The position numbers and the translations under genes were made by a program. DNA of 64,000 nucleotides from assembly GCF_013376005.1 (NCBI RefSeq), contig NZ_JABMJK010000003.1, positions 434,001-498,000 on the forward strand, read 5' to 3'. This document shows, one piece after another, positions 14,694-53,681 of the stretch. The notes below the pieces were generated by a model, which was not told the origin of the DNA, ran no database searches, and saw nothing but the letters and a program-made list of their open reading frames with translations. The stretch's first letter is position 1, and every line of letters begins with the position of its first letter. The stretch comes from Duganella sp. SG902 (GTDB lineage Bacteria; Pseudomonadota; Gammaproteobacteria; Burkholderiales; Burkholderiaceae_D).

Positions 14694-14863
14694 CGACACA
14701 TCTTTCTGTAGCATAGATACAACTTTATCCGACTACAGAGGCGAAGTAGTCGACGTAAACCGTATTTCGGCACAAACATTGTTTGACTGTTATTCTAGTT
14801 TTAATACAAGATCGAACGAAGCGTCACAAGAACGCGCCATTCGACACACACCTGGAGACTACA

Positions 14864-17626: not shown

Positions 17627-19303
17627 TTAGCCCTGCGCTTCGCGCGCAGGGCTTTTTTCGGCGCTTTGCTCGCGATACCAAAGGGCCAGCATGGACAACG
17701 CAAACAGCACCCCGAACGGAGCGGCCGGCAACGGCCGCTCCGCCGCACCGCCAGTCGCCACGATTGCCGCAGCCGCCGAACGTGTCGCGTACCGCGCGGT
17801 CGCTTCACGCCGCAGCGCGCGCTGCCACGCCGGCCAATCATTGGCGGCATAAACGTATTCCAGGCCCGGCGCCTCCATGCCTTCCGCGTTGAACTTGATC
17901 CATCCGGCTTTCTGTGGCCAGAACGCCGCGCATACACCATCCGCCTTGTCGGCGCGAGGCTGCAAGGCCATTGCCGCATAGCCTTCCGCCGCCAACATCA
18001 CGCCTGTCTTCACACCTTGCGCGCACACTTCGCTGCGCAAACCCGGCACCGGCATCGGATCGTTCAATTGCCACACCGTTTTTTGCACGCTATCCAGCGC
18101 AATCCGATCCATGGCGGATTGCCACCACAACGCCAACAGCCGTGGCTCGCTGATCGCATACTTGTGCCACTCCGTCACGCCCAGCCACACCACGCGGCCC
18201 TTGCCGACGGCGCGGCTCCACATCCACGGCTGCTTTTTCGCGTCGCGTGCCAGCACCGACCACGGCTCGGCTGCATTCTCGGCCGGATTCAAGCCGGCGG
18301 GAGGCATGGCCAGCGTGGCGTTGAACTGCCGCACGTCCTCTTTTTCAGTGGTCGGCGATTGCGGATGCAGCGGCAGCCCGAAATCACGTTGCCACATCCC
18401 GACATCCGAGGCGCTGCCGCCCAGCACAACCAACGGCACGCCCTGCCCCACCTGCGCCAACAAACTGCCGCGCGCCGATGGACTTAGATGCTCGACGTAG
18501 GCCGCATCGACAAACATCACATTCGGTGCGGTGAGCGGCGCGCGCGCCGTTTCGCCGCGCGTGATGGCCTTGCCCAGCGTGACATTCCAGTCCAGGATGG
18601 CGTTACCGTCAGCCAGCAACTGGTTCAGCACGCGCGCATCAAATGATGGCGCGTCAAAGCGGCCCTGTACCTGCAACGGCACCGCATCCGTCACCTGCAG
18701 CGGAACCGGCCCTTGAGCGATGATTTTGCCGGCGGCGTCCAGCAAGCGCGCCTGCAGCACCATGGTCTCGGCCACCGGCGGCAGCCACTGCACCGTCAAC
18801 TGCGTCGCCGCAGCCGGCGCGCCGGAATCGGCCAGCACCTGCTTGTTCTCCGCCAGCAGCTGCAAGCGCCACGCGGCCTGCGTCAGTGGACGACGCACGG
18901 AGAGTGTGAAGATGCGGCCCAGCGATATCGAACGCGGGAAGTCCAGCCAGAGCAGATCGGCGTTGGCCGCCGGCGTCCATTGCAGCGGACGCGCAGGCAA
19001 ATCGCGCCAGTCCGCCTCGCGCACGCCGTCCCCGCTGAGCGCAATGGCGGCGGCGGCGGGAATCGCAAGGCGGTCGGCGTCACTGAGATGGCCCGCCTCG
19101 GTGCTGACGGACAGCGGGGCGGCGTTGAGGGCGGCAGGCAATCGGACATCCGCGATCGACACCGCCAGCGCGGCGCCTGCAACGCCGGCCAAGGCAGCGT
19201 TGAGCCACTGTTTTTTGCGGCCATACAGCGCCGCGCTGATCGCGCCCGCCGCCAGCGCGGCCAGCGGTGGTGCTATCGCCGCGAGATCGGTAGCGATCAT
19301 CAT
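17627..19303 (-). CDS. Membrane protein with glutamine-amidotransferase-like domain, end of the MoxR/TldD operon
   Basis: A 558-aa protein of unknown function. Two N-terminal helices (about 8-27 and 33-50), a large presumably periplasmic part and one C-terminal helix (about 530-548, followed by a short basic tail) are visible. The middle includes L-L-A-Q-V-G-Q-G-V-P-L-V-V-L-G-G, similar to the GATase1-like fold found in BatA/B-associated membrane proteins, but no catalytic Cys can be assigned. The start at 19303 shares ATGA with the stop of the upstream gene, which shows translational coupling. It is the last gene of a ten-gene minus-strand run and its stop lies next to the terminator of the convergent receptor. 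Confidence 0.8.
   Translation of the reverse strand: MMIATDLAAIAPPLAALAAGAISAALYGRKKQWLNAALAGVAGAALAVSIADVRLPAALNAAPLSVSTEAGHLSDADRLAIPAAAAIALSGDGVREADWRDLPARPLQWTPAANADLLWLDFPRSISLGRIFTLSVRRPLTQAAWRLQLLAENKQVLADSGAPAAATQLTVQWLPPVAETMVLQARLLDAAGKIIAQGPVPLQVTDAVPLQVQGRFDAPSFDARVLNQLLADGNAILDWNVTLGKAITRGETARAPLTAPNVMFVDAAYVEHLSPSARGSLLAQVGQGVPLVVLGGSASDVGMWQRDFGLPLHPQSPTTEKEDVRQFNATLAMPPAGLNPAENAAEPWSVLARDAKKQPWMWSRAVGKGRVVWLGVTEWHKYAISEPRLLALWWQSAMDRIALDSVQKTVWQLNDPMPVPGLRSEVCAQGVKTGVMLAAEGYAAMALQPRADKADGVCAAFWPQKAGWIKFNAEGMEAPGLEYVYAANDWPAWQRALRREATARYATRSAAAAIVATGGAAERPLPAAPFGVLFALSMLALWYREQSAEKSPAREAQG
17630..17658 (+). terminator. Rho-independent terminator of the TonB receptor gene
   Basis: GCCCTGCGC pairs with GCGCAGGGC across a short loop and is followed by six T. 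A second GC-rich hairpin (GCCGGCCC...GGGCCGGC) lies just before it, at 17602-17625. The left part also encodes the last residues of the convergent gene. Confidence 0.85.
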
Positions 19304-21351
19304 TTTGCTTGCTCCTTGCCGGCCCACGCGCGGCGGAAAGTCGAATCCGCCGAGGGCCTCGCCTGCAGCAGCACCGGCGCTTCCGCCAAGGTGCCGCGCA
19401 GCCAGGCGCGCAGCTCGGCGCGGCATGGCACACAGCCGTCCTGCACATCCTGCACCGCGCGCTGGGCGCTGAGTTTCTGTTCCTGATCGGTGACCCGCGC
19501 GGCGATGGTGTCGCGCGCGGCCTTGGCCCACAGGGCCGGCAAGGCGCCGTCCTGCGACAACGCTTGCACCAGCTCGCGCACCTCGGCCGGCACGCTGTCG
19601 TTGGGTGCTCCCTGTTCACGTTTGTAGCTCATGGCGCCGACAATGTCGCCGGTCATACGCTTCTCCTCCTTCAGCGCCGGTGGCACGAAGGCCGTGCGGT
19701 GCAGGTAGACGCGTTCCGCCGACTGCAGTTCCTTGATCGCGTCCAGCGCCTTGTATTCCGGCGCCAGCGCCGTCTTGGGCGAGATCGCGCGCAGGGCCTT
19801 CTCGGCATCCCACATGGCGGCCAGCGCGCGGCGCAACACCGCCTTGGTTTGCGGATCGAAGATGGTGGCGTTGCCTTCCTGGTCGTGCGCGTGGCCGAAG
19901 GCTTTCATCACGGAGATTTCGCTGCCTGGACGTTCCTGGGCGCCGCCGCTTTCGTGGTGTTCCTCGTGTTCTTCCTCGCCGAACAAGCTGGATTCCTCGC
20001 CCAGGAACTGGCCGTAGCGCAGGCGCAGCTTGGTCTGGTCGGCGGCGATGGCTTCGCTGCGGTTGCGCAGGGTGGCGGCCGGCATGTCGGGATGGGCTTT
20101 CAGGTCGGCCACCAGTTGCTCCGTGTCGATGATGATCTGGCGTTGGCTGCGCAGGTTCTCGGGCTTGGTCATGGTCGGCAGCGCGGTGGATTCGAGGCTT
20201 TCCGCATCCGGGCCTGGCAGGCGCAGGGTGTAGGTTGGCGATTGCGCGGTGTGCGGGCTTGGCGCGTTGTCGGTGGCGCGCAAGAAGAAGTAGAGTTCAT
20301 CGCCCGGTTCCATGCCGAGTTCCGCCAGCGTCCATTGTTTTTTCCAGTTGCGGGATTTCGGGTCGGTGGATTGCGGCAGCGGGACTTCCTTGTCGCTGAA
20401 GCGGATGTTCTCGCCGCTGCCGCGCGCCAGCGTCATGTGCAGACTGGCGCGGACGATGGCGTAATCGTCCTTGGCGCCGACGGAGATCTGGACCGCCTTG
20501 GCATCTTTTGCCAGCAGGTGGATTAACTCGGTGGGCGCGGCGATGGTGATTTCCGGCGCCTGGTCCGGCGTGACGCGGATGTTGTAGCGGGTGCCGCCGG
20601 CGCCACGGGCGCGCCAGAACAGAGAGTCTTCAACGCGAAGTTTTGCACACTCCGGGGTGACGTCCAGCGTTTGGCCGTCGCCCAGTTCTATCACGGGCTG
20701 TGCGCCAGCCGGATTGCGCACGCACCAGCGGACCTCGGAGTATTGGGGAACCTGGATGTCGCGAGCGCCGGTTTCGAATGCGGCGACACCTGTGTAGGCC
20801 GGCGGTGTGACGCGCAGGTGGACTTCGCCATCGACGATGGGTTTATTGGCTTGCTTCGCGGTGGCTGGCGATGGCGCGGCGGTTGGGCGGGTGTGCCAGG
20901 CGGCGGCGCTGCCTGCGGCCAGCAGGCTGAGTACGAGCGGCAGGATGGTGAAGCGTGCGCGTTGGCGCGCGATGGTTTTGTAGTCGTCGGCGGCCAGTAT
21001 GCTGGCGAGTCGGGCTTGCAGGCGTTGCTGCTGAAGCCTGGCGATTGGCGTTCTGGCCTCTTCGGCCAGCAGGGTACTGCTGTCTTCCAGTTGCGGGATG
21101 GCCTGGTTCAGCCACGAGGCCCATTGCTGGTTGATGCGATGGCGCCAACGGGCCGCGTCGACGGCGATCCAGACCAGGCAAAGCGCGACGGCGGACAACA
21201 CGAACAGCCAGGCGTTGCTGACGGTAGTCGCCGGATGGAGCACGATGGCGGCTACCGCCAGCGGCGCGAGGACGGCCAGCCATTGCGGCACGCGGCGGCG
21301 CAGGATGGCGGCCCAGAGGCTGTCGCGCAGGTGGTCAGTTGCGCCGTGCAT
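19300..21351 (-). CDS. DUF4175-like membrane protein
   Basis: A protein of 683 aa. It has a cytoplasmic basic N-terminus, two helices (about 25-41 and 46-63), a coiled-coil-prone region (about 80-130), a third helix (about 132-150) and a long periplasmic part. That part has the proline-rich P-P-A-Y-T-G motif of DUF4175 proteins near residue 190 and immunoglobulin-like beta segments, followed by helical Glu/Lys-rich segments and a His/Glu cluster (E-E-H-E-E-H-H-E-S). The start overlaps the previous gene by 17 bp and the end shares ATGA with the next, so all three are coupled. DUF4175 proteins are conserved beside MoxR/DUF58/BatA genes; their biochemical role is not known. Confidence 0.8.
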   Translation of the reverse strand: MHGATDHLRDSLWAAILRRRVPQWLAVLAPLAVAAIVLHPATTVSNAWLFVLSAVALCLVWIAVDAARWRHRINQQWASWLNQAIPQLEDSSTLLAEEARTPIARLQQQRLQARLASILAADDYKTIARQRARFTILPLVLSLLAAGSAAAWHTRPTAAPSPATAKQANKPIVDGEVHLRVTPPAYTGVAAFETGARDIQVPQYSEVRWCVRNPAGAQPVIELGDGQTLDVTPECAKLRVEDSLFWRARGAGGTRYNIRVTPDQAPEITIAAPTELIHLLAKDAKAVQISVGAKDDYAIVRASLHMTLARGSGENIRFSDKEVPLPQSTDPKSRNWKKQWTLAELGMEPGDELYFFLRATDNAPSPHTAQSPTYTLRLPGPDAESLESTALPTMTKPENLRSQRQIIIDTEQLVADLKAHPDMPAATLRNRSEAIAADQTKLRLRYGQFLGEESSLFGEEEHEEHHESGGAQERPGSEISVMKAFGHAHDQEGNATIFDPQTKAVLRRALAAMWDAEKALRAISPKTALAPEYKALDAIKELQSAERVYLHRTAFVPPALKEEKRMTGDIVGAMSYKREQGAPNDSVPAEVRELVQALSQDGALPALWAKAARDTIAARVTDQEQKLSAQRAVQDVQDGCVPCRAELRAWLRGTLAEAPVLLQARPSADSTFRRAWAGKEQAK

Positions 21352-22393
21352 GGGTGAGTATCCGTTCGATGATGAAGAGCGCCAGCAGAGCCAGTGCCAG
21401 CCAGCTCGCAGGCTTGGCGCTCACGATGGCAGGCAGCGCGTTGCGGGCGGCGGCGAAGGTTTGCGATGGCGTTGGGTAGGCTGGTGCAGGTGCTACGGCC
21501 AGCGACTGCCAGGCTTCGTACAGCACGCGCGCGGTGTCGGCGTCGCGCGGTGGGAAAGCGTCCGACGTCCACAGACGGCCGCGCGGCGAGTCTGTGTACT
21601 TCAGCGTGATGCCGTTGATCGTCAGCGTGGAAGCTTTGGCCAGTTCGGGGAAGGCCGCCGGCGTGGCGATCCACCAGTGTGGCGCGTGCCAGTCAGCGGG
21701 CGGCGTTGCGTTGGGCGTGTCCCAGACGATCAGCGGAGTCTTGGCGTCCGGCTCGGCGGCGACCACGTAGCGGGTGGCGCCCTCCCCTGCGCTGCTGAAT
21801 GCGGCGAACAGGGAGCGCCATGCCGAAGCGCGCGCGTCTGTCGCCGCAAGCGCCACGCGGCGCTCGACCGGCGTGGCGATGCCCGACGCGCGTGGCGCGG
21901 CTACGGGCTGAGTGCGCAATTGGAGTTGATGGTTGTATTGCGGCAGGCGGGCCGGCATGGCGATTTGGTCAGCGCGGGCGACGATCAGCAGTTTGGCATC
22001 GCTACGCCAATCGCGTTCGTTCGCGCGCAGCCATTGCAATGCGTTTGACGGCAGCTCGGCGCGCGCGGCGGCGCCGAAGCCGGCGGCTGCTATTTCCTTT
22101 TCCGCCCATGCTTTGTCCACGCCGGCGTCGATCAACACCGTGTCGCCGCGCCACGGGAAAATGGTCGCCGCCAGCCAGGCGATCAACGCCACCAGCATCA
22201 GGCAGCGTACCAGCAGCAGCGCTTTGTCGCGCCACTGCCAGACGCGCAGCTGCTCCGGCGGTGCGGACGGCAGGAAGCGTGCCGTCGCCAGCATCTCGGC
22301 CTTCAGCCGCTGGCGCTTCTGGCGATGCCACCATACCGGCAGCAACAGCACCGGCAGCGCCAGCCACCACAGGGGGTAAGAACTCAACATCAT
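21335..22393 (-). CDS. BatA-type N-terminal double-TM membrane protein
   Basis: A 352-aa protein with the BatA N-terminal signature: a short hydrophobic N-terminus (Y-P-L-W-W-L-A-L-P-V-L-L-L-P-V-W-W-H) followed by a basic loop, a T-A-R-F-L-P segment and a second helix (about 60-80). A large middle domain with weak von Willebrand A-like features follows, then a C-terminal helix (about 330-348). I do not see an intact MIDAS D-x-S-x-S motif. It starts at 22393 in an ATGA overlap with the DUF58 gene. BatA/B-type proteins act in the inner membrane together with MoxR ATPases and DUF58 proteins in stress tolerance and protein maturation. Confidence 0.85.
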   Translation of the reverse strand: MMLSSYPLWWLALPVLLLPVWWHRQKRQRLKAEMLATARFLPSAPPEQLRVWQWRDKALLLVRCLMLVALIAWLAATIFPWRGDTVLIDAGVDKAWAEKEIAAAGFGAAARAELPSNALQWLRANERDWRSDAKLLIVARADQIAMPARLPQYNHQLQLRTQPVAAPRASGIATPVERRVALAATDARASAWRSLFAAFSSAGEGATRYVVAAEPDAKTPLIVWDTPNATPPADWHAPHWWIATPAAFPELAKASTLTINGITLKYTDSPRGRLWTSDAFPPRDADTARVLYEAWQSLAVAPAPAYPTPSQTFAAARNALPAIVSAKPASWLALALLALFIIERILTHARRN

Positions 22394-23295
22394 TTGGCCC
22401 GTGCTCCCGCGAGCTGCAACCAATTGCGTAAAACACCACTCAAAGGCTGCTCGATGCGGGCCTCGTAATGGACGATGTTATGTTGACGGCAGCGGGCCAC
22501 CACATCGTCGAAGTGTGCTCGGCTCTGCTGTTTGTAGGATTCACGGTCCGCATTGCTCATGCGATGCAAGCCGTCGTTCTGTTCCGGGTCGCGATAGGCG
22601 GTGCCGGACTTGAACGACGCCTCCACCTCGGCCTGGGTGCGCAGCGTCAGCAGGCGTACGTCGTGCCGCATGTTGCGCAGGCGGAGCAAGGCTTCGCTCA
22701 GTGGCGAAGGCCAGTCGAGGAAATCGCTGGCGGCGAAGATCATGCTGGGCGCGCGGGCGAAGTGCAGACTGGCTTTCAGCACGTCGGCGGATGGCAAGCT
22801 GCCTTGCGGCGTGGCCTTGTTCATCGCGGCCAGCACGCGCTGCAACTGGCGCGGCCCGCGCGCGGCCGGCGTGAATTCGACTTTGCCGTTGGTGCAGACC
22901 ACTAGACCGAAGGCGTCACCCTGACGCTGGGCGATGGCGGCCACGCAGGCCAGCACGGTGCGGGCGAACCACAGTTTGTCGATGCCGTTGATTTCACGGC
23001 TGGGCTCCGCCATCGACGCGGTGGCATCCAGCCAGAGCCAGACGGCGACGTGGCTGTCGCGTTCCGCCTCGCGCACGAAGTAGCGGTCGGCGCGAGCCAG
23101 CAGCTTCCAGTCCACGCGGCGCCATTCGTCGCCGGGCGCGTAGGCGCGGTACTCGGAGAACTCGACTCCGGCTCCACGCTCGCGGCCCGCGTGGATGCCG
23201 TGGCCCAGCCCCGCCAGCACGTGACGAATCACCAGGTCCAGATCCTTGGTCTGGGCCATCATCGCCGTCATGTTAGCCTGCGCGGTAACTTGCAT
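22390..23295 (-). CDS. DUF58 domain protein
   Basis: A soluble protein of 301 aa. The DUF58 signature is visible: F-S-E-Y-R-A-Y-A-P-G-D-E-W-R-R-V-D-W-K-L-L-A-R-A-D-R-Y near residues 46-71, and a vWA-like L-D-A-T-A-S-M motif near residue 90 (D-x-T-x-S, the divalent metal site). DUF58 proteins are standard partners of MoxR AAA+ ATPases. The ATG at 23295 overlaps the MoxR stop by one base (TGATG). It probably forms a metal-dependent adaptor between the ATPase and the membrane partners encoded downstream. Confidence 0.9.
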   Translation of the reverse strand: MQVTAQANMTAMMAQTKDLDLVIRHVLAGLGHGIHAGRERGAGVEFSEYRAYAPGDEWRRVDWKLLARADRYFVREAERDSHVAVWLWLDATASMAEPSREINGIDKLWFARTVLACVAAIAQRQGDAFGLVVCTNGKVEFTPAARGPRQLQRVLAAMNKATPQGSLPSADVLKASLHFARAPSMIFAASDFLDWPSPLSEALLRLRNMRHDVRLLTLRTQAEVEASFKSGTAYRDPEQNDGLHRMSNADRESYKQQSRAHFDDVVARCRQHNIVHYEARIEQPLSGVLRNWLQLAGARAK

Positions 23296-24296
23296 CAGTC
23301 AGGACGGATATGCTCGCGCAGCGCTTGCAGGATGTCGGCGATCGCCACACCGTCCGCTTCCGCTTCGAAGTTGCGCAGCACGCGGTGCGCCAGCACCGGC
23401 AGCAGCATCTCCGCGATGTCTTCACGCGTGACGGCCAGGCGGCCGTGCATCAGCGCGCGCGCCTTGGAGGCCAGCACCAACGCCTGGCCGGCACGCGGGC
23501 CGGCACCCCAGCCGATATGCTTGGTCACCGCAGGCACCGTCGTCAATGCAGGACGCGTGGCGCGCACCAGGCGCGTGGCGTAGGCTACCAGGTGATCGCC
23601 AATCTCGATATCGCGCACCAGCTGCTGCAAGCGCAGGAGCGTGGCGACGTCCATCACCGGCTCGGCGTCCTTCAGGCCGGCGTGCGTGGTGGCGGACACC
23701 ATCCGGATCTCTTCCTCTTCGGTCGGATACACCACATCGATGCGCAGCAGGAAGCGGTCCAGCTGCGCCTCTGGCAGCGGATAGGTGCCGGCCTGTTCGA
23801 TCGGATTCTGCGTCGCCAACACGAAGAAGGGCTTGGGCAGCTTGTGGGTCTGGCCGGCAAAGGTCACCGAGCGCTCCTGCATCGCCTCCAGCAGCGCCGA
23901 TTGCGTCTTCGGCGGCGCGCGGTTGATCTCGTCCGCCAGCAGCACCTGCGTGAACACCGGGCCTTGCTGGAAGCGGAACTCGCGTTTGCGCGTCGCGTGG
24001 TCCTCTTCCAGGATCTCGGTGCCAACGATATCGGACGGCATCAGGTCCGGCGTGAACTGCACGCGGTGGAAGTCCAGCTCCGTCGCCTGCGACAGCGACT
24101 TCACCAGCAGCGTCTTGCCCAGCCCCGGCACGCCCTCCACCAGCGCGTGGCCACCGGCCAGCAGGCAGATGATCAGCGAGTCGATCACATTCTCCTGGCC
24201 GATAATCACGCGTCCCATACTGGCCTTGAGCGCCTTCACCTTGGCGGTCAGTTCGCCGATTTCTTTTTCGCTCCAGGCGATCGCACCATCAGCCAT
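23295..24296 (-). CDS. MoxR family AAA+ ATPase
   Basis: A chaperone-type ATPase of 333 aa. Walker A (G-V-P-G-L-G-K-T, about 50-57), Walker B with L-A-D-E-I-N-R-A-P-P-K-T-Q, sensor 1 in L-A-T-Q-N-P-I-E-Q-A-G-T-Y-P-L-P-E-A-Q-L-D-R-F and the C-terminal lid are all present, as in MoxR/RavA relatives. The ATG at 24296 was chosen because it gives the standard family N-terminus; an open frame 32 codons longer runs into the previous gene. It lies 5 bp after the DUF4159 stop and overlaps DUF58. MoxR ATPases remodel or insert metal into partner proteins; the likely clients here are the peptidases or membrane proteins of the same operon. Confidence 0.93.
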   Translation of the reverse strand: MADGAIAWSEKEIGELTAKVKALKASMGRVIIGQENVIDSLIICLLAGGHALVEGVPGLGKTLLVKSLSQATELDFHRVQFTPDLMPSDIVGTEILEEDHATRKREFRFQQGPVFTQVLLADEINRAPPKTQSALLEAMQERSVTFAGQTHKLPKPFFVLATQNPIEQAGTYPLPEAQLDRFLLRIDVVYPTEEEEIRMVSATTHAGLKDAEPVMDVATLLRLQQLVRDIEIGDHLVAYATRLVRATRPALTTVPAVTKHIGWGAGPRAGQALVLASKARALMHGRLAVTREDIAEMLLPVLAHRVLRNFEAEADGVAIADILQALREHIRPD

Positions 24297-24301
24297 AATC
24301 A

Positions 24302-24925
24302 CTAAGCTCCCAACGCATATTGAATGATATTCACCGCAAAGCGGGTGTTGTCGACCGCGAGAAACCGCTTGTTGCGGAAGTCGTAGTCCCACTCGCAGCC
24401 GTAGTCCTTGTTGCTGTACAAAAGCCGCACGCGGCCGCCCACCTCGACCGCCTTCAGGTAGTCGTGCACCAGATCGTCGCCCCAGCCGTTCAGCTCCACG
24501 GCGGTATTGGGCGGGCCGTCTTCAAATTTGAAAAAGCTCGAATAGATCGGATGGTTGTTGGGGATCTTGTGCAGCGCCTTCGGCCCGAAGATACGGGCGA
24601 TTTCGGCCTCGAACGATTTCGCGAACAGTCCGTCGATGTCGTGGTTGCAGTCGTCCACGAACAAAAAGCCGCCGCCCTTGATGTAGCGCTCCAGGTTCTT
24701 GCGCTCGGCGGCCGTGAACTGCACCAGCTTGTGGCCGGCGAAATAGCAGAACGGCGCCTCCAGCATTTTCGGGTCGGACAGGGCGACGATGCGCTCAACG
24801 GGATCGACGCGCAAGGTCGTGTATTCGACCAGCGAGTTGAGCACGTTGCTGGGCATGCGGACATCCACATCCCAGTCTCCCGACTCGTAGGTCAGGCGCG
24901 TGAAGTAAAAATCGTACGAAGCCAC
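24302..24925 (-). CDS. DUF4159 protein
   Basis: A protein of 207 aa with the DUF4159 fold. It has an F-Y-F-T-R-L-x-Y start, R-x-L-E-R-Y-type F-L-F-V-D-D-C-N-H glutamine-amidotransferase-like core and a K-D-Y-G-C-E-W-D-Y region. I choose GTG at 24925, because GAGGA lies 7 bases upstream; a GTG six codons earlier has no ribosome site. No signal peptide is seen. DUF4159 proteins commonly accompany MoxR/DUF58/BatA clusters and have no assigned activity. A palindromic repeat fills the gap to the upstream TldE-type gene. Confidence 0.85.
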   Translation of the reverse strand: MASYDFYFTRLTYESGDWDVDVRMPSNVLNSLVEYTTLRVDPVERIVALSDPKMLEAPFCYFAGHKLVQFTAAERKNLERYIKGGGFLFVDDCNHDIDGLFAKSFEAEIARIFGPKALHKIPNNHPIYSSFFKFEDGPPNTAVELNGWGDDLVHDYLKAVEVGGRVRLLYSNKDYGCEWDYDFRNKRFLAVDNTRFAVNIIQYALGA

Positions 24926-24944
24926 GTCATTGTCCTCAGTCACA

Positions 24945-25024
24945 CGTCATTCCGGCGTAGGCCGGAATCCATAGGCCGCGTAATGTCAGGCGCAGCATGG
25001 ATTCCGGCCTGCGCCGGAATGACG
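24945..25024. repeat. REP-like palindromic repeat, copy 1 (CCGG type)
   Basis: An 80-bp element. Two outward arms (GTCATTCCGGCGTAGGCCGG and CCGGCCTGCGCCGGAATGAC) flank a less conserved centre, and each arm is itself a hairpin. It sits between a TldE-type gene and DUF4159. Confidence 0.9.
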
Positions 25025-25031
25025 GAGGGTT

Positions 25032-26369
25032 CTATACCGCGTCCGACAGGGACGTGAAGTTAAAGTCGCGCACCTTCATCGGTGGGATCAGCATCTGGAA
25101 GCGCACTTCGTCGCCGCCGATCACCACCGGCTTGCCCAGTTCATCGATGTTGTTCAACATCGTCACCGGGCTTTCATTGAAGCGGAAGTTCTTGATCGGA
25201 TGCTTGATCTTGCCGTTCTCGATGTAGAACGTGCCGTCGCGCGTCAGGCCGGTCAGCAGCAGCGACTGCGGATCGACCATGCGGATGTACCAGGTGCGCG
25301 TGACGAGGATGCCCTTCTTGGTCGAGGCGATCAACTCCTCGGTCGACTTGCCGCCGCCCGCCATGATCATATTGCCGTGGCGGCCCACCGCGCGCTGGCC
25401 CTGCTTCTCGGCCCAGTAACGCGTGTAGTCCAGCGAGGCGACCTTGCCGCCCTTGATCACGTCCGCGCGCTCGCGCGCCAGCATGGCCTGGTTATCCCAG
25501 GGCAGCACCGGCACGTCGGGATTCCACGGATCGGCCCAGATGTTCACCTGCTCGTCGAACAGCTTTTCGCCGAGGCGATTACCGCCACCCTTCTTCGACA
25601 GGAAGCTGCGCCCCTCGTCGGCCTGGCGCGCATCGAAGGCGCCGAACATGCGGCCGATGATTTCCGACGTCGCCGCAGGCTCCAGGATCACCGTGTAGCG
25701 GCCCGGCTCCAGCGCCTTGGCGTCCACCGATTTCACCGCTTTTTCAATCGCGATCTCCGAGGACTCGCGTGGATCGAACTTGCGTGCGTCGTTGGCGGAG
25801 CGCGTCACCCAGCCGGAGCCACGACCATCCTCGGTGCGGGTGGTGACGGTGAAACCCAGATTGCTCAGGGTCTGGTAGCCGAACACGCCATTCGAGTTGG
25901 CCACCGTTTCAAAGCCGGTGGTATCGCTGAAAAAGCCGGCCGCGATCAGGCCCTGCTTCTTCGCCGCGTTGATGCTCATGGCCGCCACTTCGGCGCGGTA
26001 CTCCGGATCGATGGCGGCGGTGGCTTCGCTGAATGTGGCCGACGGCTTGTACTCCTGCTTCTTGATCGCCGGCTGGAACTCCGGATTCTCCGGCGCCAGG
26101 CGCGCCACGTCTTCCGCGCGGCGCACCACTTTTTCCAGCGACTTATCGTCAAACTCATTGATCGACGCCGTGCCCTGCTTTTTTCCGAAGGCCACGCTCA
26201 CCGTCAGCTGCGTGTTCTGCGTCAGGCCGGCGGTGGACACGGCGTTGCGCGCGTAGCGGATGTTGCCGTTGCGGGCGCCGTTGATCTGCACGCGGCATTC
26301 ATCGGCCTTGGAGAGCGACAGTACCTTGTCGCAAATGCGCTTTGCTTCATCTTGCATCAGCATCTTCAT
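25032..26369 (-). CDS. TldE/PmbA-type peptidase partner subunit, copy 1
   Basis: A protein of 445 aa of the TldD/TldE family, the non-catalytic-looking member of the heterodimer. It has the N-terminal repeat with N-I-R-Y-A-R-N-A-V-S-T-A-G and the late N-F-R-F-N-E-S-P-V-T-M-L-N-N-I-D region but no HExxxH. It starts 3 bp after the TldD1 stop. No signal peptide is visible, in contrast to its partner. TldD/TldE heterodimers cleave unfolded or modified peptides, for example in maturation of microcin B17 and degradation of CcdA. The 445-aa length is identical to that of the second copy at 28123-29460. Confidence 0.88.
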   Translation of the reverse strand: MKMLMQDEAKRICDKVLSLSKADECRVQINGARNGNIRYARNAVSTAGLTQNTQLTVSVAFGKKQGTASINEFDDKSLEKVVRRAEDVARLAPENPEFQPAIKKQEYKPSATFSEATAAIDPEYRAEVAAMSINAAKKQGLIAAGFFSDTTGFETVANSNGVFGYQTLSNLGFTVTTRTEDGRGSGWVTRSANDARKFDPRESSEIAIEKAVKSVDAKALEPGRYTVILEPAATSEIIGRMFGAFDARQADEGRSFLSKKGGGNRLGEKLFDEQVNIWADPWNPDVPVLPWDNQAMLARERADVIKGGKVASLDYTRYWAEKQGQRAVGRHGNMIMAGGGKSTEELIASTKKGILVTRTWYIRMVDPQSLLLTGLTRDGTFYIENGKIKHPIKNFRFNESPVTMLNNIDELGKPVVIGGDEVRFQMLIPPMKVRDFNFTSLSDAV

Positions 26370-26372
26370 GGC

Positions 26373-28010
26373 TTATCCAATCTTGCGTGCAGTGTTGATC
26401 ACATTGACGCCGTTGAAGCGCGTGGTCGGCGAGCCGTGCGACACGGCGCTGACCTGGCTGGGCTGGCCCTTGCCGTCGAAGAAGGAGCCGCCCATGCGCC
26501 AGTCGCGCTCATCGCACAATGCGGTGCAGGCGTTCCAGAATTCCTGTGTGTTCGACTGGTAGGCCACGTCTTCCAGTTGGTTGACGATCTTGCCGTTCTT
26601 GATTTCGAAGTACAGCTGGCCGCCGAACTGGAAGTTATAGCGCTGCTGATCGATCGAGAACGAGCCGCGGCCGAGAATGTAGATGCCCTTCTTGACGTCC
26701 TTGATCATCTCGTCCGGAGTCAGCTTCTTCTTGCCCGCTTCCAGCGACACGTTGGGCATGCGCTGGAACTGCACGCTGCTCCAGCTGTCCGCGTACGAGC
26801 AGCCGTGCGATTCTTTTTCACCGATGACGGCGGCCTGATCGCGCGTGGCCTGGTAGTTCACCAGAATGCCGTTGCGGATTAGATCCCAGCGCTTGGCGGC
26901 TACGCCTTCATCGTCGTAACCGACGAGGCCCAGCGAACCTGGTGTGGTCTTGTCGGCCACGAAGTTGACGATGTCCGCGCCATACTTGAAGTTCTTCGAC
27001 TTCCACTTGTCCAGCGTGGCGAAGCTGGTGCCGGCGTAGTTGGCCTCGTAGCCCAGCACGCGATCCAGTTCGGTGGCGTGGCCGACCGATTCGTGGATGG
27101 TCAGGAACAGGTGTTCCGGCGAAAGTACCAGATCGTACTTGCCCGGTTCGACCGTTTTCGCGGTCAGCTTTTCTTTCGCCTGACGGCCGGCCGCGCGCGC
27201 GTCTTCGATCAGATCGTAGGCGCCCTTGTACAGCGTGGTGACGCCGCCGGCGGCCTTGATGCGGTTCTCCGGTTTGCAGTCGAAGAATTCATAGCCCATG
27301 CTGGATGGCGACGACAGGCCGTCGCGTGTGCGGAACTTGCCGCTGGCCTTATCGACAGCGGTGGCGGTGAACGGCGACCACAGACGATGGATGTCCTGGT
27401 CGATGTAGGAGCCGTCGGTGGAGGCGAAGTACTTCTGCTGGTTCACCTGGAACAGCATGGAGCGCATGAAGTTGGCGCCCGCTTCCATGCCGGCCTTGTT
27501 GGCGGCCAGGAGCATCTCGGCCTTTTCGGCGATCGGCACCGCGCGCCAATCTTTCTTGAACGGCGTGGCCCAGGCCACCTCGCCCACGCCTTTGACCGGC
27601 GCCAGCACCACCGGCTCGGTTTGCAGCTTGGCGTTGGCCTTGGCGATGGCCACCGCCTGGCGCGCGGCGTCGGCCACCGAGTCCAGCGTCATGACGTTGG
27701 TGGAGCAGAAGCCGTACGCGCCGTTGGCGATCACGCGCACGCCGACGCCGGAGGATTCGGTGTTGACGATGTCCTCCACGTTCAGATCGCGCGTGGTGAT
27801 GAATTGGTTCAAATAGCGGCCGATGCGCACGTCGCAGTAAATGGCACCGGCCTTGGTGGCGGCGTTCATGGCGGCGTCGGCCAGCGATTTTTTGAATTGC
27901 ACAGCCATCGGGTTGAGCAGCTCCTCAGCCGCGATGGCGTTACCGAAGACCGGCACCAGCAGCGCTCCGCCAGCGGCGGCGCTTACTTTTAAAAATGAAC
28001 GGCGTTCCAC
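26373..28010 (-). CDS. TldD-type zinc metallopeptidase with Tat signal, copy 1
   Basis: A 545-aa peptidase. The GTG at 28010 has AAAGGAG 6 bases upstream and opens with E-R-R-S-F-L-K followed by a hydrophobic stretch ending in A-I-A-A, which is a twin-arginine (Tat) signal peptide. Canonical TldD is cytoplasmic, so this implies export of a folded metalloprotein. The zinc-binding H-E-S-V-G-H motif lies near residue 325 and a Cys (G-C-S-Y-A-D, near 420) supplies the third ligand as in TldD. An ORF that starts further upstream crosses a palindromic repeat and is not used. It is translationally close to its TldE-type partner. Confidence 0.88.
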   Translation of the reverse strand: MERRSFLKVSAAAGGALLVPVFGNAIAAEELLNPMAVQFKKSLADAAMNAATKAGAIYCDVRIGRYLNQFITTRDLNVEDIVNTESSGVGVRVIANGAYGFCSTNVMTLDSVADAARQAVAIAKANAKLQTEPVVLAPVKGVGEVAWATPFKKDWRAVPIAEKAEMLLAANKAGMEAGANFMRSMLFQVNQQKYFASTDGSYIDQDIHRLWSPFTATAVDKASGKFRTRDGLSSPSSMGYEFFDCKPENRIKAAGGVTTLYKGAYDLIEDARAAGRQAKEKLTAKTVEPGKYDLVLSPEHLFLTIHESVGHATELDRVLGYEANYAGTSFATLDKWKSKNFKYGADIVNFVADKTTPGSLGLVGYDDEGVAAKRWDLIRNGILVNYQATRDQAAVIGEKESHGCSYADSWSSVQFQRMPNVSLEAGKKKLTPDEMIKDVKKGIYILGRGSFSIDQQRYNFQFGGQLYFEIKNGKIVNQLEDVAYQSNTQEFWNACTALCDERDWRMGGSFFDGKGQPSQVSAVSHGSPTTRFNGVNVINTARKIG

Positions 28011-28033
28011 AAATTTCTCCTTTAGCCTGAAAG

Positions 28034-28114
28034 CGTCGCTCCCGCGCAGGCGGGAGCCCATGCCGCGCGGGCGATCAGGCGCAGCATGGATTCCCGCCTG
28101 CGCGGGAATGACGG
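28034..28114. repeat. REP-like palindromic repeat, copy 2 (CCCG type)
   Basis: The arms here read TCCCGCGCAGGCGGGA and TTCCCGCCTGCGCGGGAATGAC. It lies between TldE copy 2 and TldD copy 1, just upstream of the latter's ribosome site. Confidence 0.9.
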
Positions 28115-28122
28115 GGATACCT

Positions 28123-29460
28123 TTACACCGCGTCCGACAGGGAGGTGAAGTTGAAGTCACGGACCTTCATGGCCGGGATCAGCAACTGGAACTGCGACTC
28201 GTCGCCCGACAGGATTTCCGGCTTGCCGATTTCATCGATGTTGTTCAACATCGTCACCGGGCTTTCATTGAAGCGGAAGTTCTTGATCGGGTGCTTGATC
28301 TTGCCGTTCTCGATGTAGAACGTTCCGTCGCGGGTCAAACCAGTCAGCAGCACCGACTGCGGATCCACCATGCGGATGTACCAGGTACGGGTCACCAGGA
28401 TGCCCTTCTTGGTGTTGGCGATCAGCTCCTCGGTCGACTTGTTGGTGCCGGCCATGATGATGTTGCCCGGCGTGCCGACGGCGCGCTGGCCCATCTTCTT
28501 GGCCCAGAACTGCGAGTAACCCAGCGAGGCGATCTTGCCGTTCTTGATGATGTCCTGACGCTCGCGCGCCAGCATGCTTTGCGCGTCGAATGGCAGCACG
28601 GCGACATCCTTGTCCCACGGATCGGCCCAGACGTTGACCTGCTCATCGAACAGCTTCTCGCCGAGGCGGTTGCCGCCGCCTTTTTTCGACAGGAAGCTGC
28701 GGCCTTCATCGGCCGAACGCGCGTCGAAGGCATTGAACATATACGCCAGCACGTCGGAAGTGGCGGCCGGCTCCAGGATCACGGTGTAGCGGCCCGGCTC
28801 CAGCGCCTTGGCGTCCACCGAACGCAGCGCCTTCTCGATGGCGATGTCGGACGCGGCGCGCGCGTCGAACTTGCTGGCGTCGCCCACGCTGCGCTTGACC
28901 CAGCCCGAACCGCGGCCATCCTCGGTGCGCACGGTCAGGGTGAAGTCCAGGCCCGTGTCCTGCTGGTAGCCGAACACGCCGTTGGAGTTGGCGATGGAGG
29001 TGAACTGGGTGCTGTCGGTGAAGAAGCCCGCCGCCACCAGCTTGTTCTTGCGCGAGTTCTCGATGCTGTAGGCCGCCACCTGCGCGCGGAATTCAGGATC
29101 GATGTCGGCGGTCTTCTGGAAGAAGGTCTGCGAGGCCTTGTACTCCTGCTTCGACGGCGTCGGCATGAACTCCGGATTTTCCGGCGCCAGTCTCGCCAGG
29201 TCTTCCGCGCGACGCACGGCCTTTTCCAGCGACTTGTCGTCGAACTCGTTGACGGTGGCGGTGCCCTGCTTCTTGCCGAAGGCGACCGACACCACCAGCT
29301 GCGTATCTTCAATCAGGCCGGCGGTGGACACGGCGTTGCGTGCGTAGCGGATGTTGCCCTTGCGGCTGCCGTTGATCGACACTTCGCACTGATCGGCCTT
29401 GGTCAGCTTCAGCACTTTGTCGCTGATACGCTTGGTCTCTTCTTGACTCAGGAATTTCAT
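28123..29460 (-). CDS. TldE/PmbA-type peptidase partner subunit, copy 2
   Basis: A 445-aa paralogue of the gene at 25032-26369, with the same conserved stretches (N-I-R-Y-A-R-N-A-V-S-T-A-G near residue 37, N-F-R-F-N-E-S-P-V-T-M-L-N-N-I-D near 390). It has no HExxxH and no signal peptide. It begins 18 bp after its TldD partner. The strong similarity and equal length show that the TldD/TldE pair was duplicated as a unit. The two copies could differ in substrate. Confidence 0.88.
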   Translation of the reverse strand: MKFLSQEETKRISDKVLKLTKADQCEVSINGSRKGNIRYARNAVSTAGLIEDTQLVVSVAFGKKQGTATVNEFDDKSLEKAVRRAEDLARLAPENPEFMPTPSKQEYKASQTFFQKTADIDPEFRAQVAAYSIENSRKNKLVAAGFFTDSTQFTSIANSNGVFGYQQDTGLDFTLTVRTEDGRGSGWVKRSVGDASKFDARAASDIAIEKALRSVDAKALEPGRYTVILEPAATSDVLAYMFNAFDARSADEGRSFLSKKGGGNRLGEKLFDEQVNVWADPWDKDVAVLPFDAQSMLARERQDIIKNGKIASLGYSQFWAKKMGQRAVGTPGNIIMAGTNKSTEELIANTKKGILVTRTWYIRMVDPQSVLLTGLTRDGTFYIENGKIKHPIKNFRFNESPVTMLNNIDEIGKPEILSGDESQFQLLIPAMKVRDFNFTSLSDAV

Positions 29461-29478
29461 CTTGTCTCTCTCCGGGGC

Positions 29479-31116
29479 TTAGCCGATTTTGCGGGCGGTG
29501 TTGATAACGTTGATGCCGTTGAAGCGCGTGGTCGACGCGCCGTGCGACACGATGGACACTTGCGGTGGCTGGCCCTTGCCGTCGAAGAAGGAGCCGCCCA
29601 TGCGCCAATCGCGCTCGTCGCAGATGCCGACGCAGGCGTTCCAGAATTCCTGGGTGTTGGACTGGTAAGCCACGTCCTCCAGCTGCTGGCCGATCTTGCC
29701 GTTCTTGATTTCGTAGAACAGCTGGCCGCCGAACTGGAAGTTGTAGCGCTGCTGGTCGATCGAGAACGAGCCGTCGCCGACGATGTAGATGCCTTTCTTG
29801 ACGTCCTTGATCATCTCGTCCGGCGTCATGCGCTTCTTGCCCGCCTTGAGCGAGACGTTAGGCATGCGCTGGAACTGCACATTGGCCCAGTTGTCCGCAT
29901 ACGAGCAGCCGTGCGATTCTTTTTCGCCGATGATGTGGGCCTGGTCGCGGGTGGCCTGGTAGTTGACCAGGATGCCGTCCTTGATGATGTCCCAGCTCTT
30001 GCACTTGACGCCTTCGTCATCGTAGCCGACCGCGCCCAGCGAACCCGGGGTGGTCTTGTCGGCCACGATGTTGACCAGCTCCGAGCCGTACTTGAACGAC
30101 TTGGTCTGCCACTTGTCCAGCGTGGCGAAGCTGGTGCCGGCGTAGTTGGCCTCGTAGCCCAGCACGCGATCCAACTCGGTCGGGTGGCCCACCGATTCGT
30201 GGATGGTCAGCCACAGGTGTTCCGGCGTCAGCACCAGGTCGTACTTGCCCGGTTCGACCGACTTGGCTTTCAGCTTGGCCTTGGCCTGCTTGCCGGCCAG
30301 GCGCGCGTCCTCGATCAGGTCATATGATTTGGTGTACAGCGTGGTCACGCCGCCGGCCGCCTGCAGCTTGTGCTCGGGGCGCGCGTCCAGGTATTCATAG
30401 CCCATGCCGACCGGCGCCGACAAGCCCTGACGGGTGCGGAACTTGTTTTCCTTCTGGTCCACGGCGGTGGCGAAGAACGGCATCCACAGGCGGTGGATGT
30501 CCTGGTCGATGTAGGAGCCGTCGGTGGAGGCGAAGTACTTCTGCTGATTCACCTGGAACAGCAGCGATTGCATGAAACTGGCGCCGCCGTCCATGCCGGC
30601 CTTGTTGGCGGCGATCAGCAGGTCGGCCTTGTCCTTGATCGGCACCGTGCGCCAATCCTTGACGATCGGCGTCGCCCACGACACCTCGCCTACGCCCTTC
30701 ACCGGCGCCAGGATCAGCGGCTCGGTTTGCAGCTTGGCGTTGGCCTTGGCGATGGCGACCGCCTGGCGCGCGGCGGCCGCCACGCCGTCCGGCGTCATGT
30801 CGTTGGTGGCGGCGAAGCCGTAGGCGCCGCCGGCGATCACGCGCACGCCGACGCCGGCCGATTCGGTGTTGACCACGTTCTCGACGTTGAGGTCGCGCGT
30901 GGTGAGGAACTGGTTCAGATAGCGGCCGATGCGCACGTCGCAGTACGAGGCGCCCGCCTGGGTGGCCGCGCCCATGGCGGTATCGGCCAGGGCCTTCTTG
31001 AATTTCACATCCACTGGCTTGAGCAGTTCGTCCGCCGCGATGGCGCGGCCGAACGCGGGCAGCAGCATCGTGCCCAGTGCCAGACTACTGATATTGAGGA
31101 ATGCACGTCGTTCCAT
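29479..31116 (-). CDS. TldD-type zinc metallopeptidase with Tat signal, copy 2
   Basis: A 545-aa paralogue of 26373-28010. ATG at 31116 follows GGAGAG and opens with E-R-R-A-F-L-N plus a hydrophobic segment ending in A-I-A-A, again a Tat-type signal peptide. H-E-S-V-G-H and the downstream Cys region (G-C-S-Y-A-D) are conserved, so it should be an active zinc peptidase. This is the first gene of the ten-gene minus-strand run, with a 309-bp divergent intergenic region upstream that includes a phased repeat array. Function by family is peptide cleavage; the periplasmic location is inferred. Confidence 0.88.
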   Translation of the reverse strand: MERRAFLNISSLALGTMLLPAFGRAIAADELLKPVDVKFKKALADTAMGAATQAGASYCDVRIGRYLNQFLTTRDLNVENVVNTESAGVGVRVIAGGAYGFAATNDMTPDGVAAAARQAVAIAKANAKLQTEPLILAPVKGVGEVSWATPIVKDWRTVPIKDKADLLIAANKAGMDGGASFMQSLLFQVNQQKYFASTDGSYIDQDIHRLWMPFFATAVDQKENKFRTRQGLSAPVGMGYEYLDARPEHKLQAAGGVTTLYTKSYDLIEDARLAGKQAKAKLKAKSVEPGKYDLVLTPEHLWLTIHESVGHPTELDRVLGYEANYAGTSFATLDKWQTKSFKYGSELVNIVADKTTPGSLGAVGYDDEGVKCKSWDIIKDGILVNYQATRDQAHIIGEKESHGCSYADNWANVQFQRMPNVSLKAGKKRMTPDEMIKDVKKGIYIVGDGSFSIDQQRYNFQFGGQLFYEIKNGKIGQQLEDVAYQSNTQEFWNACVGICDERDWRMGGSFFDGKGQPPQVSIVSHGASTTRFNGINVINTARKIG

Positions 31117-31425: not shown

Positions 31426-32238
31426 ATGAAACGATACGTACTGGCCGCACTGGCCACCACGATGATGTTCGGCGCGACCGGCGCCGTGCAGGCCGACGAC
31501 GCGCTCAAGGCGGCCATCGCCGCCCCGTCGCGCACGCCGGACAATGTGAAGCGCGACGTTTACCGTCATCCGTATGAAACGCTGAGCTTCTTCGGCATCA
31601 AACCCAACATGACGGTGGTGGAGCTGGCGCCGGGCGGCGGCTGGTACACCGAGATCCTGGCGCCCTACCTGCGCGCCAACGGCAAGCTGATCACCGGCGG
31701 CAGCGACCTGGCCTCGCCCAACGAGAACGAGCGCAAGAGCGCGGAGCGCTGGATGGCGCGCCTGAACGCCAAGCCGGAGGTGTACAACAAGGTGGCCATC
31801 GGCGTGTTCTCGCCGGGCCGCAAATACGAGCTGGCGCCGCCGAACAGCGTGGACATGGTGCTCACCTTCCGCAACATCCACAACTGGATACCGCTCGGCC
31901 CGGACAAGATGAAGGAATTGTTCGGCAACCTGTACACGGTGCTGAAGCCGGGCGGCGTGCTGGGCGTGGAGGAGCACCGCCTGCCGGCCTCCAAGACGCA
32001 GGACGACAAGGCCAGCACCGGTTACATGCACGAGCAGTACGTGATCAAGCTGGCGGAAGCGGCCGGCTTCAAGTTCGCCGGCAAGTCGGAGGTCAACGCC
32101 AACCCGAAAGACACCGCCGATCACAAGAACGGCGTCTGGGCGCTGCCGCCGACCCTCACCAACGGCGAAGAGGACCGCGCCAAGTACCTGGCCATCGGCG
32201 AGAGCGACCGCATGACGCTCAAGTTCGTGAAGCCGTAA
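31426..32238 (+). CDS. Signal-peptide-bearing class I methyltransferase-like protein
   Basis: A 270-aa protein with a SAM-dependent methyltransferase fold. The motif V-V-E-L-A-P-G-G-G-W-Y-T-E (motif I) is near residue 67, the L-T-F-R-N-I-H-N-W region near 147 and L-K-P-G-G-V-L-G-V-E near 175. ATG at 31426 follows AGGAGAC and opens with a clear signal peptide (M-K-R-Y-V-L-A-A-L ... V-Q-A-D-D), so the product is predicted periplasmic. That is odd, because SAM is cytoplasmic, though this exported family is known from several proteobacteria. Substrate unknown. It ends 12 bp before the convergent chemoreceptor gene. Confidence 0.85.
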   Translation: MKRYVLAALATTMMFGATGAVQADDALKAAIAAPSRTPDNVKRDVYRHPYETLSFFGIKPNMTVVELAPGGGWYTEILAPYLRANGKLITGGSDLASPNENERKSAERWMARLNAKPEVYNKVAIGVFSPGRKYELAPPNSVDMVLTFRNIHNWIPLGPDKMKELFGNLYTVLKPGGVLGVEEHRLPASKTQDDKASTGYMHEQYVIKLAEAAGFKFAGKSEVNANPKDTADHKNGVWALPPTLTNGEEDRAKYLAIGESDRMTLKFVKP

Positions 32239-50222: not shown

Positions 50223-50302
50223 CGTCATTCCCGCGCAGGCGGGAATCCATAGGGCGCATGGTCATAAGTTCAGCATGGATTCCCGCCTGCGCGGGAATGA
50301 CG
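50223..50302. repeat. REP-like palindromic repeat, copy 3 (CCCG type)
   Basis: Arms CGTCATTCCCGCGCAGGCGG and CCGCCTGCGCGGGAATGACG. Its right arm forms the 3' end of the following minus-strand gene. Confidence 0.9.
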
Positions 50303-53602: not shown

Positions 53603-53681
53603 GTCATTCCGGCGCAGGCCGGAATCCATGCTGAGCCACCACGCCGGCGATCTATGGATTCCGGCCTGCGCCGGAATGACG
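53603..53681. repeat. REP-like palindromic repeat, copy 4 (CCGG type)
   Basis: Arms GTCATTCCGGCGCAGGCCGG and CCGGCCTGCGCCGGAATGAC around a short centre. Its right arm forms the 3' end of the beta-lactamase-fold gene. Confidence 0.9.

Follow-up and report, generated by a model that had tools for sequence, protein, structure and literature searches.

The 64,000-nucleotide stretch of Duganella sp. SG902 analysed here (the window) carries ten minus-strand genes, spanning positions 17627–31116, which were predicted to encode a periplasmic TldD/TldE protease attached to a MoxR-type module of the cell envelope. All lie in one direction in the order TldD1-TldE1-TldD2-TldE2-DUF4159-MoxR-DUF58-BatA-like-DUF4175-like-ORF10, an arrangement which had been proposed from the letters and open reading frames (ORFs) without database searches (the sequence-only reading) and which was borne out by the sequence together with Pfam matches. 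The source is a Duganella-like genome, the TldD1 of the window being 99% identical to the TldD of D. radicis. The interpretation favoured here, to which a probability of about one half is given, is that TldD is exported in folded form by the twin-arginine translocation (Tat) pathway with TldE as a hitchhiker, and that the resulting protease is attached to a MoxR/DUF58/Bat-type envelope module. Tat-type export of TldD and the linkage of the TldD/TldE half to the module are both well supported, by sequence only.

Each TldD starts with a predicted Tat signal peptide of 27 residues. That of TldD1 (31036–31116, minus strand) is likely cut between AIA and the following A, and that of TldD2 lies at 27930–28010 (minus strand); the two proteins start MERRAFLNISSLALGTMLLPAFGRAIAA and VERRSFLKVSAAAGGALLVPVFGNAIAA, respectively. 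Translation would begin at ATG 31116 in TldD1 (MERRAFL...) and at GTG 28010 in TldD2 (VERRSFL...), with a purine-rich stretch upstream of each. Related loci were counted from L018 to L110 (n = 93), the short, overlapping stretches L001–L017 being left out of all counts, and RR-x-F-[LIVMFA] was found in the N-terminal region of all 179 TldDs scoring above 700 bits in them. A set of 89 TldDs was assembled from 47 chosen loci and the window, with L103 dropped, and in every one of these RRxF stood right at the start and no charged residue occurred at positions 9–22, while AxA was present at positions 21–34 in 77. Only M1, R3, R4, F6 and P20 are invariant within the first 30 positions of 27 aligned TldDs, and the signal region is otherwise less conserved than the remainder of the protein (4/29 invariant residues at positions 2–30 versus 166/515 over the rest). 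TldD2 scored 20.4 bits against TIGR01409, over the cut-off of 16.7, and 20.5 bits against PF10518, for which the cut-off is 22.7. The Tat-type signals which the sequence-only reading had noticed on both TldDs are supported by the invariant RRxF, the uncharged stretch and the AxA found in most members.

Nineteen control TldDs, comprising canonical proteins and another group, contained RR-x-[FLIVM] within the first 110 open-frame residues in five cases, and the full signal architecture, judged by eye, in none; in control L133 the RR and a hydrophobic run were present but no start codon lies ahead of them. The canonical TldD of the same genome has no twin-arginine motif. Three further TldD relatives outside the operon (38–42% identical) have no module nearby, and the motif is absent from the two of them whose N termini were read. 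An origin of the RRxFL motif by chance was considered and rejected, as it is invariant in the 27 aligned TldDs, present throughout the 179 collected, and the controls are without the architecture. TatC is encoded in the genome.

Both TldDs and both TldEs contain three PmbA_TldD domains over the Pfam cut-offs. TldD1 (29479–31116, minus strand) is a catalytic subunit with the motif HESVGH, and TldD2 (26373–28010, minus strand), the second catalytic subunit, is 79% identical to it. HExxGH was found in 89/89 TldDs, and HExxxH in none of 79 TldEs, a set in which the TldE of L103 was kept. H306, E307, H311, C404 and C495 are invariant in the 27 aligned TldDs, although the alignment of C495 to E. coli TldD stops before the metal ligand Cys454 of the latter. 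Against the two NCBIfam TldD equivalogs TldD1 reached only 77.7 bits (cut-off 513) and 131.2 bits (cut-off 635), so that by sequence the operon TldD belongs to the same superfamily as canonical TldD and is not its orthologue. Since a canonical TldD and a canonical PmbA are encoded elsewhere in the genome (two further PF19289 matches, 234–235 bits), the operon pairs are extra copies. A third TldD-like group of about 480–510 aa (L136–L139 and other matches of about 130–180 bits) is neither of the canonical nor of the operon type, and the four N termini of it that were read have no such signal. No relatives of TldD1 were found in viral contigs.

TldE1 (28123–29460, minus strand) and TldE2 (25032–26369, minus strand) are the non-catalytic partners, and no signal peptide was seen in TldE1. 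RR-x-[FLIVM] is absent from the first 15 residues of all 79 TldEs, which have two to six charged residues at positions 9–22. According to the available text of a study of the E. coli proteins (PMC5810440), TldD/E is a stable heterodimer in which both subunits are required and the metal site belongs to TldD, inside a shell; it trims unfolded N termini and removes the leader of microcin B17. As both subunits are required in E. coli, an active exported TldD would need TldE to come along, and since TldE and the local DUF4159 protein have no signal, co-export is a requirement of the model.

The second line of evidence is the linkage of the two halves. L103, with a TldD 39% identical, lacks the module. 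Among the other 92 loci, 89 contain TldD and TldE, each in one or two copies, followed by DUF4159-MoxR-DUF58-BatA-DUF4175 in fixed order, and the remaining three run into contig ends. TldD (D) and TldE (E) are arranged as D-E, D-E-D-E, D-E-D or D-D-E. These loci are not independent, some repeating one genome (e.g. L046 and L106); eleven come from seven other families and, by kinship labels, from at least two classes. The few loci met in other phyla stem from plasmid records. Gaps within the core are short (medians at most 69 bp), with a few loci at 250–480 bp and two holding insertions of 1.5 and 2.3 kb. In L092 (11077–12611) about 1.5 kb between DUF4159 and MoxR contains only short ORFs on both strands.

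In 398 genomes of the phylum the operon-type TldD (best match above 850 bits, the next genome reaching 392) and this DUF4159 (E < 1e-100) occurred in the identical 13 genomes, and in 97 genomes of the family both occurred in the identical 14, two genomes being common to these sets and the DUF4159 profile having been built partly from the same genomes it was tested on. A 14th phylum row for DUF4159 (G138, E 8e-4, 19 bits) looks like chance. Full inspection covered all 13 phylum genomes, each of which has the whole gene row, and nine of the 14 from the family. The system is unevenly distributed, being absent from one genome of the same genus. Separation of the halves in other species had been named beforehand as the outcome that would speak against their coupling; examined from the TldD side, they were found together. 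No conserved extra partner emerged when the ORFs of 100 aa or more that flank 17 diverse loci were compared: no family was present in more than five loci, the most widespread being that of the divergent upstream gene. Two groups include loci outside the Oxalobacteraceae, the first shared by L093 and L102 and LysR-like by eye, the second linking L095 to L104 and L107.

The MoxR-family AAA+ ATPase (23295–24296, minus strand; AAA_3 and AAA_lid_2) and the DUF58 protein (22390–23295, minus strand) matched their Pfam families well over the cut-offs. MoxR is without signal or clear transmembrane (TM) segment, and both proteins are taken as cytoplasmic. DUF58 carries a VWA-type DxSxS/DxTxS motif of the metal-ion-dependent adhesion site (MIDAS) type, in which D90 and S94 are invariant in 16 rows and position 92 is Ser or Thr. 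An AAA_3 ATPase thus adjoins a VWA-type protein with a MIDAS motif, as in a MoxR-VWA pair.

The three remaining module proteins are membrane proteins. The BatA domain of the BatA-like protein (21335–22393, minus strand) lies just under the cut-off in the window protein (23.5 versus 25.9 bits), and 15/15 family members scanned match at E ≤ 0.1. The label of the DUF4175-like protein (19300–21351, minus strand) rests on relatives, two of 14 members matching PF13779 (best E 1.8e-13) and the window protein giving no match. ORF10 (17627–19303, minus strand), membrane-anchored through a C-terminal TM segment and with mixed beta and alpha/beta regions in its model, likewise gave no Pfam match, and its 14 members gave scattered single matches (best E 2e-4, DUF7408); whole-chain matches in a fold search were poor (query TM-score ≤ 0.14 among the 50 matches listed), and no function is claimed. 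The ORF10 relative in L104 (2284–4281) has a long low-complexity, Asn-rich insertion ahead of the last TM segment. Further Bat genes (BatB–BatE) were not recognised: apart from DUF58, no BatD-type, VWA or TPR family of Pfam matched any of the remaining operon genes. Hydropathy placed TM segments near both ends of the BatA-like protein and of ORF10, and within the N-terminal region of the DUF4175-like protein. By the positive-inside reading, the large domains of all three are predicted to face the periplasm, namely the central domain of the BatA-like protein, the region past the third TM segment of the DUF4175-like protein, and that of ORF10.

The DUF4159 protein (24302–24943, minus strand; conserved start probably GTG 24925) matched its Pfam family well over the cut-off. 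Its model has a GATase-I/ThuA-like fold, with the Haliangium protein 4i66 as best structural match (E 1.3e-11, query TM-score 0.78) and, far behind it, gamma-glutamyl hydrolase and ThuA-like proteins. Identity to the window protein is still 69–73% in loci from other families, and in all 11 of those loci the protein has a signal-like N-terminal extension, with RR in five, RK in one and a single R in five. The window protein has no signal peptide. Among the family group of 79 loci (Oxalobacteraceae and one Pelomonas), of which L062 was not matched by the anchor pattern, the farthest in-frame start lies just 3–9 residues before the domain in 76 of 78. The DUF4159 of this group would thus either ride along with TldD/E or have moved to the cytoplasm. 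A DUF4159 match 28.5% identical was also seen on a Corynebacterium plasmid.

The following course of events is proposed, from export itself and hitchhiking through every step between ATPase and protease. TldD and TldE would assemble and take up metal in the cytoplasm, and the folded heterodimer would leave via Tat by means of the TldD signal, with TldE as the hitchhiker; DUF4159 may ride along in this family and use its own signal elsewhere. In the periplasm the protease may trim unfolded N termini of peptides or proteins. Cytoplasmic MoxR and the VWA-type DUF58 would act through the BatA-like protein, the DUF4175-like protein and ORF10, and the membrane proteins so driven may remodel or present substrates, or gate the protease. 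Taken as one specific mechanism, in which Bat-like membrane proteins, powered by a cytoplasmic MoxR ring, pass substrates to a periplasmic TldD/TldE chamber protease or gate it, and TldD, TldE and (in Oxalobacteraceae) DUF4159 leave as one folded Tat cargo, this is speculative and rather unlikely to hold in every part.

Several observations weigh against an exported protease joined to the module. The Tat profiles are weak: at E ≤ 0.1 TIGR01409 matches only 8/27 TldDs and PF10518 9/27, and neither matches TldD1. Two of the 19 control TldDs (L121, L122) formally match "start, RR-x-F-[LIVMFA]" after a TTG codon; in both, charged residues follow the motif and an ATG further on is the likelier start. 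An RR signal on DUF4159 is present in none of the 78 testable family-group loci, which could also mean that this protein works in the cytoplasm. The membrane topology is a reading of hydropathy. The MoxR module also occurs without TldD, so that direct contact between ATPase and protease is not implied by the module.

This last point was seen in three records, none of which has a TldD up to 9 kb from its MoxR match. In a record of Sinorhizobium pSymB, MoxR and DUF58 are accompanied by a 937-aa protein that is annotated as DUF4159 and matches BatA weakly (16 bits), and a weak ORF10-like match (15 bits) follows it; a Gemmatirosa record has, in order, a DUF4159-like protein (18.5 bits), MoxR, DUF58 and a BatA-like protein (42 bits); a Prevotella record has MoxR and DUF58 only. 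Since the first two records combine MoxR and DUF58 with BatA or DUF4159 parts although TldD is missing nearby, the module can serve a purpose independent of TldD. RL3499 of Rhizobium is described, in the available text of PMC3893208, as a MoxR that matters for the integrity of the membrane and for cell morphology, and a paper on the RL3499–RL3502 operon reports in its title an effect on cell morphology and envelope integrity. That operon would correspond to the Sinorhizobium locus and would have no TldD, so a TldD-less relative of the module probably affects envelope integrity in Rhizobium. The pSymB record shares MoxR, DUF58, BatA-like and DUF4159 parts with the Duganella operon, and differs from it in that the BatA-like and DUF4159 parts are fused in the 937-aa protein and TldD/TldE is not within 9 kb.

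The strongest competing explanation places MoxR and DUF58 ahead of export, where as a dedicated chaperone they would help TldD/E to assemble or to receive its metal, much as NorQ/NorD do for nitric oxide reductase; the protease would then work alone in the periplasm. MoxR/VWA pairs remodel targets or help insert metals, e.g. NorQD, according to the part of the source available (PMC13036017); TldD has a metal-site motif and would need both metal and partner before Tat export, and perfect co-occurrence suits a dedicated chaperone. However, the same kind of module is found without TldD, the available text on E. coli TldD/E (PMC5810440) names no such partner, and this explanation gives no ready account of three membrane proteins whose large domains are predicted to be periplasmic. 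The Duganella operon also differs from NorQ/NorD and other MoxR/VWA pairs, with which it shares a MoxR AAA+ adjoining a VWA-type protein, in having extra membrane proteins and no nitric oxide reductase or other known client. A pre-export chaperone is accordingly possible, though on the whole we doubt it. Two live models are left, one in which substrates are presented or the protease is gated across the membrane and one in which maturation takes place in the cytoplasm prior to export, and the operon by itself does not discriminate between them.

A periplasmic peptide maturation resembling that of ribosomally synthesized and post-translationally modified peptides, with the precursor encoded elsewhere, seems improbable. 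Removal of the microcin B17 leader by TldD/E speaks for it, and the extra TldD copies of several lineages could mean several substrates, but the short core gaps between operon genes, the lack of a modifying enzyme in the operon and the small ORFs speak against it. Small ORFs (20–110 aa; 943 from 17 loci) were compared inside the operon and up to 3 kb away from it, and none recurs outside the Oxalobacteraceae except for one that shadows the start of DUF4159 on the antisense strand in two loci; no recurrence suggests a precursor. The earlier remark that no precursor peptide is obvious in the operon is in line with this comparison. Least probable of the three competing explanations is that the N terminus is no export signal, or an anchor only, and TldD stays on the cytoplasmic side as a peptidase with the membrane module. 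The weak Tat scores and the signal-less TldE and local DUF4159 favour this; against it stand RRxF, which is invariant while the uncharged N terminus around it varies, the AxA of most members, and the control TldDs, which have no such architecture.

Among known systems, E. coli TldD/TldE (PmbA) is alike in its Pfam domains, in HExxxH being confined to TldD and in the adjacent partner gene, whereas the operon TldD scores far below the equivalog cut-off, carries a Tat-type signal and stands in a MoxR operon. The Bacteroidota Bat aerotolerance operon likewise has MoxR, DUF58 and a BatA-type N terminus; here no further Bat gene was recognised, and TldD/E, DUF4159, the DUF4175-like protein and ORF10 are added. 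Folded complexes with signal-less partners are exported by Tat, e.g. PaoABC and HybOC, in the available text of PMC4273604; these too have one subunit with a Tat signal and partners without, but they are redox enzymes and not proteases, and hitchhiking in the present system is a prediction. In Stenotrophomonas maltophilia an uncharacterised operon with two TldDs and a MoxR-like ATPase is mentioned in the part of PMC7688217 available, some of its genes being down in biofilm in 7/7 isolates; its described content fits the D-D-E form, although in the Venn analysis of the same source 5S rRNA is the sole entry down in every isolate, which also counts against the proposal. A term search of the main text of a Pseudomonas aeruginosa Tat substrate study (PMC6085387) gave no mention of TldD or PmbA, and no exported TldD/TldE was described among the literature matches listed, as far as their titles and abstract openings tell and with few subscription journals among them.

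The history of the two TldD-TldE pairs was read from a quickly built tree of 90 TldDs. In the Oxalobacteraceae group the first copies fall into one set and the second copies into another, with 36 members in each and supports of 92 and 95; one Pelomonas lies inside. A single duplication therefore took place before these genera spread. In L093 the two copies group with each other (support 96), the result of a separate duplication. The first copies of D-D-E loci form their own branch and the two L097 copies lie apart; from this separate placing they are older or lateral in origin. A further TldD with a twin-arginine motif lies inverted after ORF10 in L097 (5352–6986). In five Oxalobacteraceae loci (L041, L056, L071, L082, L084) TldE2 is gone and TldD2 kept, and L093 has the same D-E-D layout of two TldDs and one TldE; as such loci keep both TldDs, one TldE can probably serve two. 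Outside this family, six loci show just one TldD-TldE pair ahead of DUF4159, and in one of the six an additional TldD lies inverted. The two duplicated pairs described by the sequence-only reading hence apply to this operon and not to these six loci, the duplication lying within one family.

The coupling of the genes, also claimed at the outset, was confirmed at four module joints, with TGATG at MoxR/DUF58, ATGATG at DUF58/BatA and DUF4175/ORF10, and a 17-nt overlap at BatA/DUF4175. It does not extend to all ten genes, because inverted repeats sit in the gaps at the TldE1/TldD2 joint (28034–28113, no strand) and, between the TldD/TldE half and the module, at the TldE2/DUF4159 joint (24945–25024, no strand). 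These resemble repetitive extragenic palindromes, and their pattern, GTCATTCCNGCNNANGCNGGAATCCA, had seven matches in the window versus none in 100 shuffles. Two more sites lie outside the operon (50224–50301 and 53603–53680), giving four in the window.

Just downstream of ORF10 lies a convergent gene, TonB-dependent-receptor-like by eye (14783–17587, plus strand), and a terminator-like hairpin was seen at 17629–17653. The divergent upstream gene (31426–32238, plus strand) has a signal-like N terminus and is methyltransferase-like, by eye only; an ORF related to it adjoins the operon in five of eight Oxalobacteraceae loci compared.

Taken together, the conserved operon of this soil bacterium suggests a protein-processing machine of the cell envelope that has not been described, in which TldD/TldE, ordinarily a protease of the cell interior, appears to have acquired an export signal. 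If the proposal is true, a conserved exported form would put an N-terminus-trimming chamber protease into the periplasm, MoxR/Bat-type modules would gain a concrete enzymatic partner, and Tat would have a new multi-subunit cargo. As the candidate client shares the operon, the targets of the MoxR/DUF58/Bat module would become directly testable.

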